DNA of 40,049 nucleotides, taken from positions 1-40,049 of the forward strand of contig JAAYKP010000079.1 in the NCBI GenBank assembly GCA_012522335.1. The letters are read 5' to 3'. The stretch comes from Bacillota bacterium. GTDB lineage: Bacteria; Bacillota; Dethiobacteria; Dethiobacterales; Dethiobacteraceae. Of this stretch, positions 1,409-15,870 are shown in pieces (the stretch's first letter is position 1; each line of letters starts with the position of its first letter). Below the pieces are notes generated by a model that worked only from the letters and a program-made list of their open reading frames with translations, ran no database searches and was not told the DNA's origin. Both the position numbers and the translations under genes were made by a program.

Positions 1409-1445
1409 AAAGACGCGCTCGGTTTGACCGGGCGCGTCTTTATTA
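1409..1445 (+). terminator. Rho-independent terminator of the lipoprotein gene
   Basis: A 15-bp stem (1409-1423 with 1427-1441, one T-G pair near the middle) closes on a 3-nt loop and runs into T residues. It follows the lipoprotein stop by 15 bp and separates that gene from the CooS homologue. Confidence 0.85.
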
Positions 1446-1485
1446 TGCTTAAACAGCCTGTGCGGATAAATTGATGGCTAAAACT

Positions 1486-1503
1486 CAAAACTGCTCCGTT
1501 TTG
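1486..1503. promoter_or_regulatory. Candidate operator upstream of the CooS homologue
   Basis: A 6-bp inverted repeat (caaaac, six-base spacer, gttttg) lies about 45 bp before the CooS start. No convincing sigma-A -35/-10 pair is visible around it, and it does not match the CooA/CRP consensus, so a regulatory role is only possible. Confidence 0.25.
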
Positions 1504-1547
1504 GGGCATACTAGCAGAGATGAATACGCAATCGGGAGGCTGTTATA

Positions 1548-3461
1548 ATGGCAGAAAATGTTTTAGAAAGACTGGAAGGACGTGTTAGTTATCATGATTC
1601 CGTCGAGGAAATGCTGAAAAGGATTAGGGATGACGGATTATCCAGTGTGTTTTCCAGATGGGAAGAACAAGAGAAAATACGCTGTAAGTTTTGCCTCCAG
1701 GGCTTAAGCTGTCAGTTATGTACCCATGGCCCCTGCCGGATCAGTGAAAAAGCGGGGGCAGAAAAAGGGGTCTGTGGTATCGGTCCCGATGCCATGGCTA
1801 TGCGCAACTTTTTAATGAGAAATATTATGGGGGCAGCCACATATGGACACCATGCCTTTGAGGCTTTTAGAACACTCAAGGCAACAGCTGCAGGAAAAAC
1901 ACCTTTTAAAATAACTGATGTTGATAAACTGCAGTGGCTGTGTGAACAGACAGGTATTAATCCCAAGCAGGAGACGAATGAATTAGCTGTTCAGCTGGCG
2001 GAGCTGCTGGATCGTGAATTAAAGGTAAATCCTGATCAGGAAAGCATTATGGTAGAGGTTTTTGCCCCTAAAAAACGCAAAGCCATATGGAGAAAACTGG
2101 ACTTATACCCTGCAGGTGTGCAGCATGAAGTAGAAAACTGCATTGCCAGCTGTTTAACCAATGTTGACGGAGATTACGTTTCCTTAGCTAAAAAAGCGCT
2201 GCGCCTGGGACTGTCAACCATTTATACGGCGCTAATCGGCTTGGAAATGACGCAGGATATTCTGTTTGGTACCCCTATGCCGCATGAAGTAGACGTAGAT
2301 TTAGGCATTATGGACCCGGATTATGTAAATATTGCCTTTAACGGCCATCAGCCCTGGATTGGGGTGGCAGCACTGCAGAAAGCAAAACAGGCAAAATATC
2401 AGGAGCTGGCGCAAAAAGCCGGGGCCAAGGGACTGCGGATAGTTGGCTCCATTGAAACCGGTCAGGAGTTACTGCAGCGCTTTGCGGTAGACGATGTGTT
2501 TGTGGGACTGATGGGCAACTGGTTAGCCATTGAGCCCTTATTGGCGACCGGTACTGTCGATGCCCTGGTGATGGAGGAAAACTGTTCGCCGCCGGCGATG
2601 GATCAATATGCGGAAAAATATCAGGTGGCGCTGATTAGTGTCAGTACCATTATTGGTGTACCCGGCACAGAACATAACATGGCCTATAATCCGGTTAAGG
2701 CTGATGAAATGGCAGAAAAATGTATAGAAGTGGCCATTGAAAACTTCAAAAAGCGTCATGGCAAGATTAAAGCTATGGTGCCGCAGCATAAGCGTAAAGC
2801 CATAGCCGGATTTTCTACAGAGGCTGTTTTGCAGGCTATTAATAACGACCTAAATGTGTTGGTAGATGTTATATCCAAGGGTAAAATTAAAGGAATAGTG
2901 GCTTTAGCCAACTGTGCAACGCTGCGCAATGGTCCCCACGACTGGAATACTGTCAATATTACCAAGGAATTAATTAAGCGTGATATTCTGGTAGTGGCCG
3001 GCGGCTGCGGCAATCACGGCTTGGAAGTAGCCGGTCTCTGTAATTTGAAGGCCATTGAGCTGGCAGGTCCGGGACTGCAGGAAGTGTGTAAAGCTCTGAG
3101 TATTCCGCCTGTCTTAAGTTTTGGCACCTGTACCGATACCGGCAGAATTTCCATGCTGGTTACTGCTTTAGCTGACCATTTGGATGTTGATATCCCTGAT
3201 TTGCCCATTGCTGTCACGGCTCCGGAGTGGATGGAACAAAAAGCGACCATTGATGGCATTTTTGCGGTAGCTTATGGTGCATACACTCACCTGTCGCCCA
3301 CGCCATTTATTACCGGTGCACCAAAGTTAGTGAAGCTGCTGACTGAAGATGTAGAAGAGATGACAGGAGGAAAAGTGGCGCTGGGTGATGATCCCGAGCA
3401 GGCGGCACGTGATATAGAAGCTCACATCATAAAAAAGAGAAAACAACTAGGGCTTAAATAA
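1548..3461 (+). CDS. cooS: CooS-type carbon monoxide dehydrogenase homologue with a deviant active-site ligand set
   Basis: This 637-residue protein has the length and order of an anaerobic Ni-CODH catalytic subunit. The N-terminal Fe-S region carries C46, C49, C55, C58, C63 and C76. By alignment from memory with CODH-II of Carboxydothermus, the C-cluster ligands are H267 (NGHQPW), C346, C456, C487 and C528, and the catalytic Lys is K565. The remaining ligand, Cys295 in CODH-II (motif GICCTGNE), is Glu303 here (GSIETGQE). A His, Glu, Cys set is what hybrid-cluster proteins use. The protein is therefore more likely a CooS-V-like enzyme with an Fe-S-O cluster than a CO oxidiser. ATG follows GGGAGG. 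The gene is monocistronic, with no cooF, acsB or cooC beside it. Confidence 0.9.
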   Translation: MAENVLERLEGRVSYHDSVEEMLKRIRDDGLSSVFSRWEEQEKIRCKFCLQGLSCQLCTHGPCRISEKAGAEKGVCGIGPDAMAMRNFLMRNIMGAATYGHHAFEAFRTLKATAAGKTPFKITDVDKLQWLCEQTGINPKQETNELAVQLAELLDRELKVNPDQESIMVEVFAPKKRKAIWRKLDLYPAGVQHEVENCIASCLTNVDGDYVSLAKKALRLGLSTIYTALIGLEMTQDILFGTPMPHEVDVDLGIMDPDYVNIAFNGHQPWIGVAALQKAKQAKYQELAQKAGAKGLRIVGSIETGQELLQRFAVDDVFVGLMGNWLAIEPLLATGTVDALVMEENCSPPAMDQYAEKYQVALISVSTIIGVPGTEHNMAYNPVKADEMAEKCIEVAIENFKKRHGKIKAMVPQHKRKAIAGFSTEAVLQAINNDLNVLVDVISKGKIKGIVALANCATLRNGPHDWNTVNITKELIKRDILVVAGGCGNHGLEVAGLCNLKAIELAGPGLQEVCKALSIPPVLSFGTCTDTGRISMLVTALADHLDVDIPDLPIAVTAPEWMEQKATIDGIFAVAYGAYTHLSPTPFITGAPKLVKLLTEDVEEMTGGKVALGDDPEQAARDIEAHIIKKRKQLGLK

Positions 3462-3537: not shown

Positions 3538-6222
3538 TTATACTTTTTCTACCCTGACAGCGGCAACTTTTAGTTCCGGAATCTTGGCCATCTTGTCGGT
3601 TACTGTGTTGGTTAGATAATTGACTTTGGCATCGGCAAAATGCATCGGCATGAACATAACTTCTTCTGCAATTCTGTCTGTTGCTTTCACGGTTGTGATG
3701 AGGGAACCGCGGCGTGAGGTAACTTTGACCTGGTCACCGTCCTTTAATCCTAAACGTTCCACTGTTGCCGTATTTATTTCGATGTATGATTCAGATGCTT
3801 TTTTATTCAGTTCATCAACTTTACCGCTCATGGACATGGCATGATATTGGTAAAGATTTCTGCCGGTAGTCATGATGAAGGGATAATCATAGTTTGCTAA
3901 TTCTGCGCTGGAGATATTATCCACAGTCACAAATAGTCCTTTGCCGCGTTCAATCTTATCCTGATGCAGGATTGGTGTTCCCGGGTGATCCGCAGAATAG
4001 CAAGGCCACTGAATACCTACTTCATCCAGACGCTCATAGGTAATGCCGGCATATTCAGGTACCAGACCGGCTATTTCTGCCATGATGTCAGCCGGCGAGC
4101 GATAAGACTGCGGCCTTCCCAAGCGGGCCATTAACTCTGAGAAGATTACCCAGTCCGGCTTAGAATCCCCGATGGGCTCAATGGCTTTTCTCACTCTCTG
4201 TACCCTGCGTTCAGTATTAGTAAAGGTACCATCCTTTTCAGCAAAGGAAGAAGCGGGAAGTACCACGTCAGCCAGGGCTGCTGTTTCTGTTAAGAAGATA
4301 TCCTGCACAACCAGGAACTCCAGGCTTGTTAAAGAATGACGCACTTTCTTTAAATCAGGATCGGTCATCATGGGGTTTTCACCTGTAATGTACAGGAACT
4401 TAATTGTGCCGTCGGCACCGCCATGTATGATTTCAGAAAGTGTTAAACCTGTTTTGGCCGGCAGACTGACTCCCCAGGCCTGCTCAAATTTTTTCCGTGC
4501 TTCGGGATGATAAACTTTCTGATAGCCGGGGTAATCACCGGGCAGGCAGCCCATATCACTGGCGCCCTGCACATTGTTTTGTCCCCGTAAAGGATTTATC
4601 CCTGCCGCTTCTTTGCCCAGATTGCCGCAAAGCATGGCCAGGTTGGAGAGAGCCATGGTAGCATGGACGCCTGAGAGATGCTGCGTGATGCCCATGGCGT
4701 AGAAAATTCCGGCTTTCTCAGCGGCAGCATACATCTGCGCTGCTTTTTTAATGTCCTCGGCACTAACAGCGCAGACCTCGGCAACTTTTTCCGGCGTAAA
4801 ATCCTGTATGTGCGCAGCGAGCTCCGCAAAGCCTTCCGTTTGTGCGGCAACAAACTCTTGGTCATACCACTTATTTTTGATAATTTCATGCATCATAGCA
4901 TTGATTAGGGCAATATTGCTGCCTGGTTTTATTTGCAGATAAATGTCGGCAATTTTGGCCAGGTCAATTTCCCTCGGGTCAGCGACAATAAGTTTGGCGC
5001 CGCGTTTTTTGGCCTGCCGCATAAAATTAGCAATGACAGGATGGTTCTCGGTCGTATTGGAACCGATCACAAACATTAAATCTGTCTCACGAATATCGCT
5101 GATACTGTTGGTCATGTTCCCGTTACCTAACGTGGTTGCAAGTCCTACAACCGTGGAAGAGTGTCAGAGACGGGCGCAATGATCAACATTATTGGTGCCG
5201 AAGACTGTTCTGACCAGTTTTTGAAAAAGATAGTTTTCTTCATTGGTATATCTGGCTGAACTTAAGCCGGCAAAAGCATCGCTACCGTATTTACTTTTAA
5301 TTTCTTTTACTTTTTTTGTTATTAAGTCATAAGCCTCATCCCAGTCGGCCTCCACAAGTTTGCCATTTTTCCTGATCAGCGGTGTTTTTAAACGGGTGGG
5401 ATGATTAATAAATTTGTGGCCAAACTTACCCTTGACACATAGTAAACCGTTATTGGGCGGCACTTTAACCGGCTTAACATCGATGACTTTTTCGTTGAGC
5501 ACAACTAATTCTAATTGGCAGCCAACCCCACAATAAGAGCAGGTAGTTTTGACATGGCGTGTCTGTTCAGACGCCTGTTCTTTACCCATTACTGCCAGTT
5601 CTTGTGCATATTCTTCGGCAAACCTTTTGGGTATAATCGCCCGTACAGGACAGATATCAATACAGTTACCGCAGGATTCACATTCAACTGTAAGCTTGCG
5701 CTGTACATACCCTTTATCATTTATTTCCAGAGCGCCAACACCCTGCAGTTCACTGCAAACGCGTACGCAAAGCTCGCAGGCAAGACATTTGTTGGGGTTG
5801 ATAATGTAAAAGGGATTGCTTTCATCAAGTTCATAATTTTTATTGCTGCTTTTTTGCGTCGGGTGGGGGATTTCATATTCCTGAACATATGCCTGCAGCT
5901 TGCACTGTACTGCAGTTGAGCATTGCTCGCAATCAAGGGGATGTTTCGCCAGCAGGTCAGTTAACACTTTCTTTCTTGCTTCCCTAACCCGCGCAGTCTG
6001 CGTCTGGATTTTCATGCCGTCACTGATGCGCTGGGTACAGGCATTAACCAGCTTTTTTTCACCTTCCACCTCGACAACGCTTAAATCACAACTGGCTACA
6101 GGTTCCAACCTGTCATCATACATTAAGGCGGGAAGAATAATCCCCGCCTGCCGACAGGCTTCATAAATGGTTAGATTATCTTTAACTTCATAGCTTTGCT
6201 CATCGATAATGATCTTTGCCAT
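3538..6222 (-). CDS. fdhA: Formate dehydrogenase catalytic subunit, selenocysteine-containing
   Basis: One 894-residue gene is read through an in-frame TGA at 5166-5164, where the context CARL-U-HSS is the active site of Mo/W formate dehydrogenases; Sec is residue 353. Order: a NuoG-like ferredoxin domain (1-80), a His/Cys cluster (H94, C98, C101, C107), two 4Fe-4S clusters (C146-C156 and C181-C191), a proximal 4Fe-4S (C228, C231, C235, C262), then the molybdopterin domains. The enzyme interconverts formate and CO2 in the cytoplasm. Two of the four expected 2Fe-2S cysteines are absent (M34 and S48; C45 and C62 remain). The start at 6222 follows GGGAGGT. It lies 71 bp downstream of metF, probably co-transcribed. 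No NuoEF-like or HycB-like partner is in the window. Confidence 0.95.
5134..5166 (-). other. Selenocysteine UGA codon and bSECIS hairpin within fdhA
   Basis: The TGA codon occupies 5166-5164 on the - strand. Eleven bases further, a hairpin (5152-5134) pairs GGUUGU with GCAACC around the loop AGGACUU. This matches the bacterial SECIS layout, a short stem with a GGNCU-type loop close behind UGA, as in E. coli fdhF. The frame continues correctly on both sides. Decoding needs SelA, SelB, SelC and SelD encoded elsewhere. Confidence 0.93.
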
Positions 6223-6252
6223 CTGCTTACCTCCCTGCAGCAAGAGATGAGA

Positions 6253-14664: not shown

Positions 14665-15870
14665 ATGTTTAAGGAAGAGTTAACGCCTAGGGTGCAGCAG
14701 TTAGCTCGGTATGTACAGGGTCTGATGCGGCAGGAAAACGGTAAAGAGCTCTACCTGCAGTATAAGGAAGAGATTGAAAGGGTTACGCCGCAGGAGGTCT
14801 TCGCCATATTTTATCTGCTGCTGCAGAAAGGGTATCAGCCGACAGAAATCTTGCCCCATCTGGATAAAGTGATCAACGTTTTCTATAAAAGTTTAGCTGC
14901 GTATGTTTGGGAACCGCCTGCAGAAAGTAGTTTCCTGGGCTATCTTAGAGAAGAGAATAAGGCACTGGTTGCCAAACTAAACGAAATCAAAAAGATTATT
15001 AAACAGGAAATCAGTTTGGCTGAAAAGCAAAAACAGCTGCTCCCCAAACTGCGAGAGCTGCAGGAATTTACTGCGCACTATGAAAAGAAAGAAAACATTT
15101 TATTTCCGCTGTTAGAGAAAAAGCGGGAGAAGTTTGCCGGTCTGTCCATTATGTGGGCTCTGCATGAAGAGATAAAAACTTTATTAAAAGCAGTAATCTC
15201 CTATCTGGAGAGGGCAGACTGCACAGAGAGCAAGCTTAACAACCTGCTGGCAAAACTTATTTTTGCTATGCAGGGACTGGTGAAAAAAGAAGAATTAATT
15301 CTCTTCCCGGTGGCCAGTGAGCTGTTTGCGGCTACAGAGTGGCAGGAAATGCAGATGCAAAGTCTGGAATACGATTTTCCTTTTATCCGCAAACCAAAGA
15401 CTTCAGAAAAAGCAATGGCTGCCGCAATGCAGAAAGTGCAGTCAGATGCTGCCTCAGGTTTATGGCAGACGGCAACGGGCAGCCTGGATTTTGAGCAGAT
15501 TGCAATGATACTAAACACTTTGCCGCTTGATATAACTTATGTGGACGAGCAGAATAAAGTCAGGTTTTTTACCAGACCAAAGGACAGGATCTTTCCTCGT
15601 TCCCCGGCAGTGATCGGCAGGGATGTAAAAAATTGTCACCCGCCCGGAAGTGTGAACACAGTAACTGAAATTATTGAAAGTTTTCGTTCCGGCAGGCAGG
15701 ATCAGGCTATGTTTTGGCTGCAGGCCAAAGGGAAAATGATTTTGATCCAGTATTTTGCCCTGCGTGACGCAGCCGGCAAATACCGTGGAGTGCTGGAAGT
15801 CAGTCAAGATATAACTGAAATCACTAAACTGGAAGGTGAGCGTCGTTTACTGCACTGGGACAACAAGTAG
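14665..15870 (+). CDS. DUF438 / hemerythrin-like / PAS sensor-type protein
   Basis: This 401-residue cytoplasmic protein has an N-terminal helical domain (about 1-85), a hemerythrin-like four-helix region (about 90-225) with metal-ligand-type positions in FTAHYEKKENILFPLLE, ALHEEIKTLL and KKEELILFP, and a C-terminal PAS domain (about 275-395) of the DUF438 type, with LPLDITYVDEQNKVRFF, IFPRSPAVIGRDVKNCHPP and LEVSQDITEI. Such proteins are thought to sense oxygen, NO or redox state through di-iron or haem; no output domain is attached. It is transcribed alone. GGAGGT precedes the ATG, 11 nt away. Confidence 0.9.
   Translation: MFKEELTPRVQQLARYVQGLMRQENGKELYLQYKEEIERVTPQEVFAIFYLLLQKGYQPTEILPHLDKVINVFYKSLAAYVWEPPAESSFLGYLREENKALVAKLNEIKKIIKQEISLAEKQKQLLPKLRELQEFTAHYEKKENILFPLLEKKREKFAGLSIMWALHEEIKTLLKAVISYLERADCTESKLNNLLAKLIFAMQGLVKKEELILFPVASELFAATEWQEMQMQSLEYDFPFIRKPKTSEKAMAAAMQKVQSDAASGLWQTATGSLDFEQIAMILNTLPLDITYVDEQNKVRFFTRPKDRIFPRSPAVIGRDVKNCHPPGSVNTVTEIIESFRSGRQDQAMFWLQAKGKMILIQYFALRDAAGKYRGVLEVSQDITEITKLEGERRLLHWDNK

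Follow-up and report, generated by a model that had tools for sequence, protein, structure and literature searches.

A CooS-V-type hybrid-cluster protein gene of structural group D-1 and a forespore-type promoter motif shared by its clostridial relatives

The closest solved relative of the protein described here is CooS-V of Carboxydothermus hydrogenoformans, whose structure was reported by Jeoung et al. 2022 (PMC9311411; PDB 7B7Q, 7B7T, 7B95, 7B97 and 7B9A). CooS-V carries a nickel-free [4Fe-3S-nO] cluster, performs neither CO oxidation nor CO2 reduction, and shows no NO reduction above background; it turns over hydroxylamine with a kcat/KM of 20 per M per s, which is lower by roughly two orders of magnitude than that of typical hybrid cluster proteins (HCPs), and its redox-gated channel suggests a reductase (PMC9311411). 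Proteins of this type make up structural group D-1 of the CO dehydrogenases (CODHs), as defined by Inoue et al. 2019 (PMC6344411), which is marked by a Glu where the first C-cluster Cys would stand, a Tyr in place of the acid-base His, a type III D-cluster and a Glu two residues before the Lys. The kind of protein is thus already known, its group having been defined in 2019 and its structure in 2022. Clade D genes appear in the literature as solitary, without catalytic CO activity and of unknown influence on metabolism.

The gene analysed here lies in a 40,049-nucleotide stretch of Bacillota DNA (the window), as an uninterrupted open reading frame with its ATG at 1548 and its stop at 3459-3461 (Table 1). 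Over residues 12-636 the product aligns with CooS-V (PDB 7B7Q) at about 60% identity and 851 bits, and the next solved relatives are genuine CODHs that reach 457 bits at most. When it is aligned with 7B7Q and with the genuine CODH of the host, His267, Glu303, Cys346, Cys456, Cys487 and Cys528 fall on the six C-cluster positions, just as an earlier note on this DNA had read them, and Glu303 in GSIETGQE aligns to the first Cys in the host CODH motif GICCTGNE. The same alignment, in which a Cys at the Cys295 position would have spoken against that note, has a Glu there and no Cys. The six-residue C-cluster motif of catalytic Ni,Fe-CODHs is therefore incomplete (Cys295 to Glu303). The nine-residue hybrid-cluster set of CooS-V and the HCPs, comprising one His, two Glu, four Cys and the Tyr and Lys at the acid-base positions, is complete in the alignment.

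Table 1. Features of the cooS locus in the window, in order of position
Feature	Position	Strand	Basis
Intrinsic terminator of the preceding gene, 15-pair stem	1409..1441	+	consensus scan; overall terminator count not above shuffles
Position of the putative -35 element, ACTCAAA, a poor TGNATA match	1483..1489	+	model scan
Putative -10 element of the shared motif, GGGCATACTA	1504..1513	+	comparison of D-1 upstreams
Ribosome-binding site, GGGAGG	1534..1539	+	read from sequence
Gene for a CooS-V-type (structural group D-1) CODH-fold hybrid-cluster protein, 637 aa	1548..3461	+	ORF, alignments, profile search, tree
Codons of C46/C49 (bridging D-cluster, type III motif) and C55, C58, C63, C76 (B-cluster)	1683..1776	+	alignment
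His267 codon (His259 of CooS-V), cluster ligand	2346..2348	+	alignment
Glu303 codon, at the place of CODH-II C-cluster Cys295 (Glu295 of CooS-V)	2454..2456	+	alignment
Cys346 codon (Cys338 of CooS-V), cluster ligand	2583..2585	+	alignment
Cys456 codon (Cys449 of CooS-V), cluster ligand	2913..2915	+	alignment
Cys487 codon (Cys480 of CooS-V), cluster ligand	3006..3008	+	alignment
Cys528 codon (Cys521 of CooS-V, persulfide-forming gate cysteine)	3129..3131	+	alignment; role PMC9311411
Glu563 codon (Glu556 of CooS-V), extra HCP-like ligand	3234..3236	+	alignment; role PMC9311411, PMC6344411

Further diagnostic residues of group D-1, beyond those listed in the earlier note, are Glu563, Tyr99 and C46/C49. 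From the alignment, Glu563 sits two residues before the acid-base Lys565, where genuine CODHs have Ser or His, and Tyr99 replaces the acid-base His; the spacing C46-X2-C49-X5-C55 is that of a type III D-cluster, so that all four marks of the group (PMC6344411) are present. The likeness to CooS-V extends over the fold family, all ligands including the Glu at the Cys295 place and Glu556, the B-cluster motif, the C46/C49 bridging cluster and the occurrence of the gene on its own in an organism that has further CODHs, although the two proteins are only 60% identical. The HCPs (hydroxylamine reductase family) have the same cluster-binding residue set, but they form a separate lineage, and the match of the window protein to their models is far under the family cut-offs (47.3 bits against 367 for NF003658, and 46.4 bits against 360.8 for TIGR01703). 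The C-terminal part of an HCP is encoded at a contig end (G000 contig C85:6985-7389, L008), and the host organism probably has both an HCP and a CooS-V-type protein.

To place the protein within its family, 84,980 reference genomes were scanned with the two most conserved peptide patterns, which yielded at least 592 stretches, 507 of them encoding a relative; the best 80 loci of that scan (73-93% identity, nearly all from Clostridia) together with the window form the D-1 set of 81 used below. Glu303 and 19 other key positions examined are identical in all 81 sequences, which excludes a sequencing accident as the origin of Glu303, whereas a Cys occupies the Cys295 position in 22 of 22 non-D-1 CODHs of the host's class, the genuine CODH of the host included. 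In a maximum-likelihood tree, such as the earlier note had called for, 26 Glu sequences including CooS-V are separated from 22 Cys sequences by a 100/100 branch, so that the window protein groups with CooS-V; because CooS-V and the host's own CODH sit on long branches, finer placement is not to be over-read. The nearest outgroup to the Glu clade consists of sequences with the motif GSMCTGQE. These belong to structural groups D-2 to D-4 of clade D (for example L007 and L230), show 44-45% identity and, unlike the window protein, keep the Cys at the critical position; L007 adjoins genes for a 4Fe-4S protein and an FAD-NAD oxidoreductase.

Judged by alignment and tree, the window protein is an ordinary member of structural group D-1 that shares descent with CooS-V, and by the same comparison the Glu motif is a fixed synapomorphy of this group of clade D. 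The earlier note had presented the protein as a deviant; the Cys295-to-Glu change on which this was based holds, but in place of an isolated deviant we find a large group that had already been named.

The standard models nevertheless label the protein a CODH. TIGR01702, the NCBIfam equivalog model for the CODH catalytic subunit, matches it at 867.9 bits, far above the cut-off of 478, and Pfam PF03063 also matches strongly, so the earlier warning that a cooS annotation for CO metabolism would mislead was well founded. Taken at face value, these matches, the presence of five of the six C-cluster ligands and an early Methanosarcina study, which has been taken as a hint of CO use through a gene of this kind (as cited in PMC6344411), would favour a working Ni,Fe-CO dehydrogenase with a Glu in place of the Fe1-binding Cys. 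We give this reading almost no credence, since CooS-V, which shares these residues, lacks both Ni and CO activity, and since the C295E change leaves CODH-II deficient in Ni and without activity (PMC9311411); the Tyr at the acid-base His position and the existence of a separate CODH in the host also argue against it. The host genome (2.0 Mb, 169 contigs, 99% complete) encodes this second, genuine CODH, with the GICCTGNE motif, between a gene for a CooC-like ATPase and acsB (acetyl-CoA synthase), and the D-1 gene is thus not needed for CO chemistry.

The proposal in the earlier note of a CODH-fold hybrid-cluster enzyme that is no CO dehydrogenase is supported by the 60% identity to CooS-V, the shared Glu, the 100/100 clade and the structure and activity of CooS-V (PMC9311411). 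Its guess at a role in NO or hydroxylamine stress is not established, given that CooS-V has no NO reduction above background and only very slow hydroxylamine turnover. For annotation, the consequence is that CO use can be claimed wrongly from a genome wherever the standard CODH model labels D-1 proteins as CO dehydrogenases, and such mislabelling could touch the relatives encoded in more than 500 stretches that came from one scan of reference genomes.

No cooC, cooF, acs or hydrogenase genes lie beside the window cooS. There is also no conserved neighbour of D-1 cooS genes: the commonest family within five genes is found in 9 of the 81 loci, at varied places, in agreement with the report that clade D genes are mostly solitary (PMC13056359). 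This differs from the association of group D-1 with COG1063 and HypAB given in PMC6344411, which has no such neighbour to match it in the present subset. An SOD gene lies 0.8 kb upstream of the window cooS; in relatives with 92-93% identity, the upstream SOD and lipoprotein genes are swapped for a GntR-ABC pair, and the convergent formate dehydrogenase gene is kept. The terminator in Table 1 parts cooS from the preceding gene and thus makes cooS a transcription unit of its own, as far as a consensus scan can be trusted in which the overall count of terminators does not exceed that in shuffles. Neither the Rfam nor the tRNA scan of the window gave a hit.

The lack of a partner gene bears on a further reading, namely that the protein is regulatory or redox-sensing, with its morphing cluster serving as a switch rather than as the site of an enzyme. 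Compatible with it are the low potentials of CooS-V, its redox-gated channel and its very slow turnover (PMC9311411), and co-occurrence papers have suggested that clades C and D may serve in redox sensing (PMC13056359). However, the window protein has no DNA-binding part either, and the fact that all 81 sequences keep every ligand and the acid-base Lys suggests chemistry at the cluster, so we regard a sensor as very unlikely.

One relative stands apart in its gene structure. At L006 (G017:C534, 1495-2826), a cooS relative 84% identical to that of the window is cut after about 440 residues and continues into unrelated sequence, being either a broken gene or an assembly join, to judge from the sequence.

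Upstream of the coding region, the D-1 genes share a two-block motif, TGNATA-N15/16-GGACATACTAA, of the forespore sigma-F/G type; PMC6344411 mentions no promoter class for group D-1. A block close to the start codon recurs despite divergent upstreams (...CTGCTCCGTTTTGGGGCATACTAGCAG... in the window and ...CGGCTGTTTTTTGGGACATACTAACAG... in L011), and the Lachnospiraceae D-1 upstreams have the form GTATT-N17-GGACATATTAAC. The pattern G[AG]CATA[CT]TA is present in 26 of 80 D-1 upstreams, compared with 2 of 843 upstreams of other genes from the same loci. Two-block motif discovery was carried out de novo, with the Shine-Dalgarno region removed after the first runs had locked on it, and returned TGNATA followed by GGACATACT. 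Dereplication at 88% protein identity left 44 D-1 upstreams, for which TGNATA-N15/16-GGACATACTA gave a log-likelihood of 158, against 60-85 in 12 matched control sets. Upon cross-validation, 25 of these 44 scored above the 95th and 14 above the 99th percentile of controls, the corresponding numbers for all 80 D-1 upstreams being 59 and 42; roughly a quarter to two fifths of the D-1 genes lack the promoter motif. Of 21 other CODH genes, none rose above the 95th percentile of the D-1-trained model.

Strong as the support for the motif is across the family, the window gene itself is a modest example of it, with a good -10 and a weak -35. Its score of 14.3 exceeds the 99th percentile (13.8) narrowly, in a model whose training set includes the window, and in the leave-in 80-sequence model its score of 12.5 lies between the 95th and 99th percentiles. 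Among 23 genes of the window, cooS alone is above the 95th percentile, again by a model trained with the window. An imperfect palindrome, CAAAAC-N6-GTTTTG, overlaps the -35/-10 region (window 1483-1519); as a CRP/FNR-like candidate for an HcpR/FNR-type site it was dropped, not being conserved in relatives. The window -10 is also flanked by CTGCT...AGCAG, and L011 has CTGTT...AACAG at the same place, which may possibly represent a covarying operator or hairpin.

The sigma-F promoter consensus is GYATA ... GGNNANANTR and that of sigma-G is GNATR ... CATNNTA. In C. difficile the two promoter types are very alike, with a G upstream of the -10 for sigma-F and an A downstream for sigma-G (PMC3789822), and both of these marks are seen in the D-1 motif, which agrees with the two consensus sequences. 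As an independent test, we applied the D-1-trained model to the regions upstream of sporulation genes in 30 of the genomes that supplied the D-1 set. By this cross-match, gpr (16/29), spoIIR (14/30) and spoVT (13/29) were found above the 95th percentile, and the scores of gpr, spoVT and spoIIR were higher than those of controls (p 2e-6, 2e-10 and 5e-5, respectively); a spoIIR match such as TGTATAT-N12-TGGCAATACTAATC lies at the same distance from the start as in the D-1 genes. The mother-cell gene spoIVA gave 3 of 28 above that percentile (p 0.07). The forespore gene spoVAC gave only 2 of 30, perhaps because it is often inside an operon.

Motif discovery on spoIIR, spoVAC or spoVT alone recovered neither the D-1 motif nor a clear sigma motif, so the assignment to sigma-F/G is drawn from the cross-match and from knowledge of the consensus. 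When 26 SASP upstreams were scanned with a regular expression, 15 had -10-like boxes, and no full -35/-10 match was found at the tested spacing. Sigma-E was considered and set aside: the -35 could pass, but the D-1 -10 has a T where sigma-E needs an A (CATACANT), and the spoIVA promoters score low.

The SASP, SpoVT, SpoIIR and SpoVAC families occur in all 30 D-1 genomes examined and Gpr in 29, and the genome of the window encodes sporulation proteins as well; such co-occurrence is weak evidence by itself, because the sample consists of Clostridia. One of the 30, the record titled Calditrichales bacterium MX18-03 (L083), holds a D-1 gene together with seven SASP genes, which suggests that it is mislabelled or that its lineage sporulates.

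The motif could instead be the promoter of another sigma factor or the site of a regulator, in which case the same hybrid-cluster enzyme would act in vegetative redox or nitrosative stress. The slow hydroxylamine reduction by CooS-V and the stress response proposed for its clade (PMC9311411, PMC13056359) would fit such a role, as would the nearby SOD gene in the window and the fraction of D-1 genes without the motif. Yet gpr, spoIIR and spoVT in these genomes fit the motif, while spoIVA does not; the SOD gene is absent beside cooS in the closest relatives, and across the D-1 loci no neighbour whatever is conserved. A vegetative stress enzyme is for these reasons rather unlikely, though a serious competitor.

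Considering the two lines of evidence jointly, the best explanation would be a CooS-V-type hybrid-cluster reductase that does not oxidize CO and is transcribed in the forespore in Clostridia, which we consider likely. For spore-forming Clostridia in particular, we lean towards the view that the D-1 enzymes may belong to the forespore regulon, as a hybrid-cluster reductase packed into spores. The nearest parallel is the sigma-F/sigma-G regulon of C. difficile, which is like the D-1 genes in promoter type and counts among its members SOD, rubrerythrin and catalase, these three being in the sigma-G regulon (PMC3789822), and a nitrite/sulfite reductase homologue (PMC3789822, PMC7438776); it is unlike them in that the main texts of these two papers name no CODH or CooS. 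The main texts of the clostridial sporulation transcriptome papers that were searched likewise make no mention of cooS or CODH, and as far as our searches go a forespore-type promoter of D-1 genes is unreported in the literature. A CODH of 68.4 kDa (G9F4A5) has been identified together with SpoIVA in the exosporium of C. sporogenes (PMC4942563). D-1-type proteins have also been reported in archaea, which do not sporulate, and this counts against the forespore reading; deletion of the D-1 gene of C. autoethanogenum had little phenotype, as cited in PMC13056359.

By analogy with its solved orthologue CooS-V, the gene product would be a homodimeric protein that binds a nickel-free [4Fe-3S-nO] cluster. 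Upon reduction the cluster should open, and the open Fe sites could then bind a small oxidant; electrons from a ferredoxin-like donor would pass through the B and D clusters for the two-electron reduction of the small substrate, and uptake of a persulfide by Cys528 would close the cluster site. CO oxidation would not be expected of such a protein. The promoters, for their part, suggest that in Clostridia sigma-F and/or sigma-G drive transcription of the D-1 gene, on its own, in the developing forespore, and that the enzyme is probably stored in the spore as a redox or reactive-species scavenger. It could plausibly act, within the spore or during outgrowth, to remove a reactive small molecule, beside SOD, rubrerythrin and catalase.

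If true, the forespore reading would give this large D-1 family its first physiological setting, and the shared forespore-type promoter points to sporulating cells and spores as the places in which to look for its function. The promoter result therefore weighs more than the identity of the protein, being the part worth following.

Other genes of the window deserve mention. A protein with hemerythrin-HHE and PAS domains (PF01814 and PF13596), encoded at 14665-15870 on the plus strand, is by its domains a possible O2 or NO sensor. Genes for methylene-THF reductase and a selenocysteine formate dehydrogenase lie near the D-1 cooS, in keeping with an acetogen-like C1 metabolism. The formate dehydrogenase gene (3538-6243, minus strand) is split only by an in-frame TGA at 5164-5166; when this is read as selenocysteine, a 902-residue enzyme of the typical selenocysteine type results (...NNVDHCARLUHSSTV...), of which automatic annotation would make two genes.
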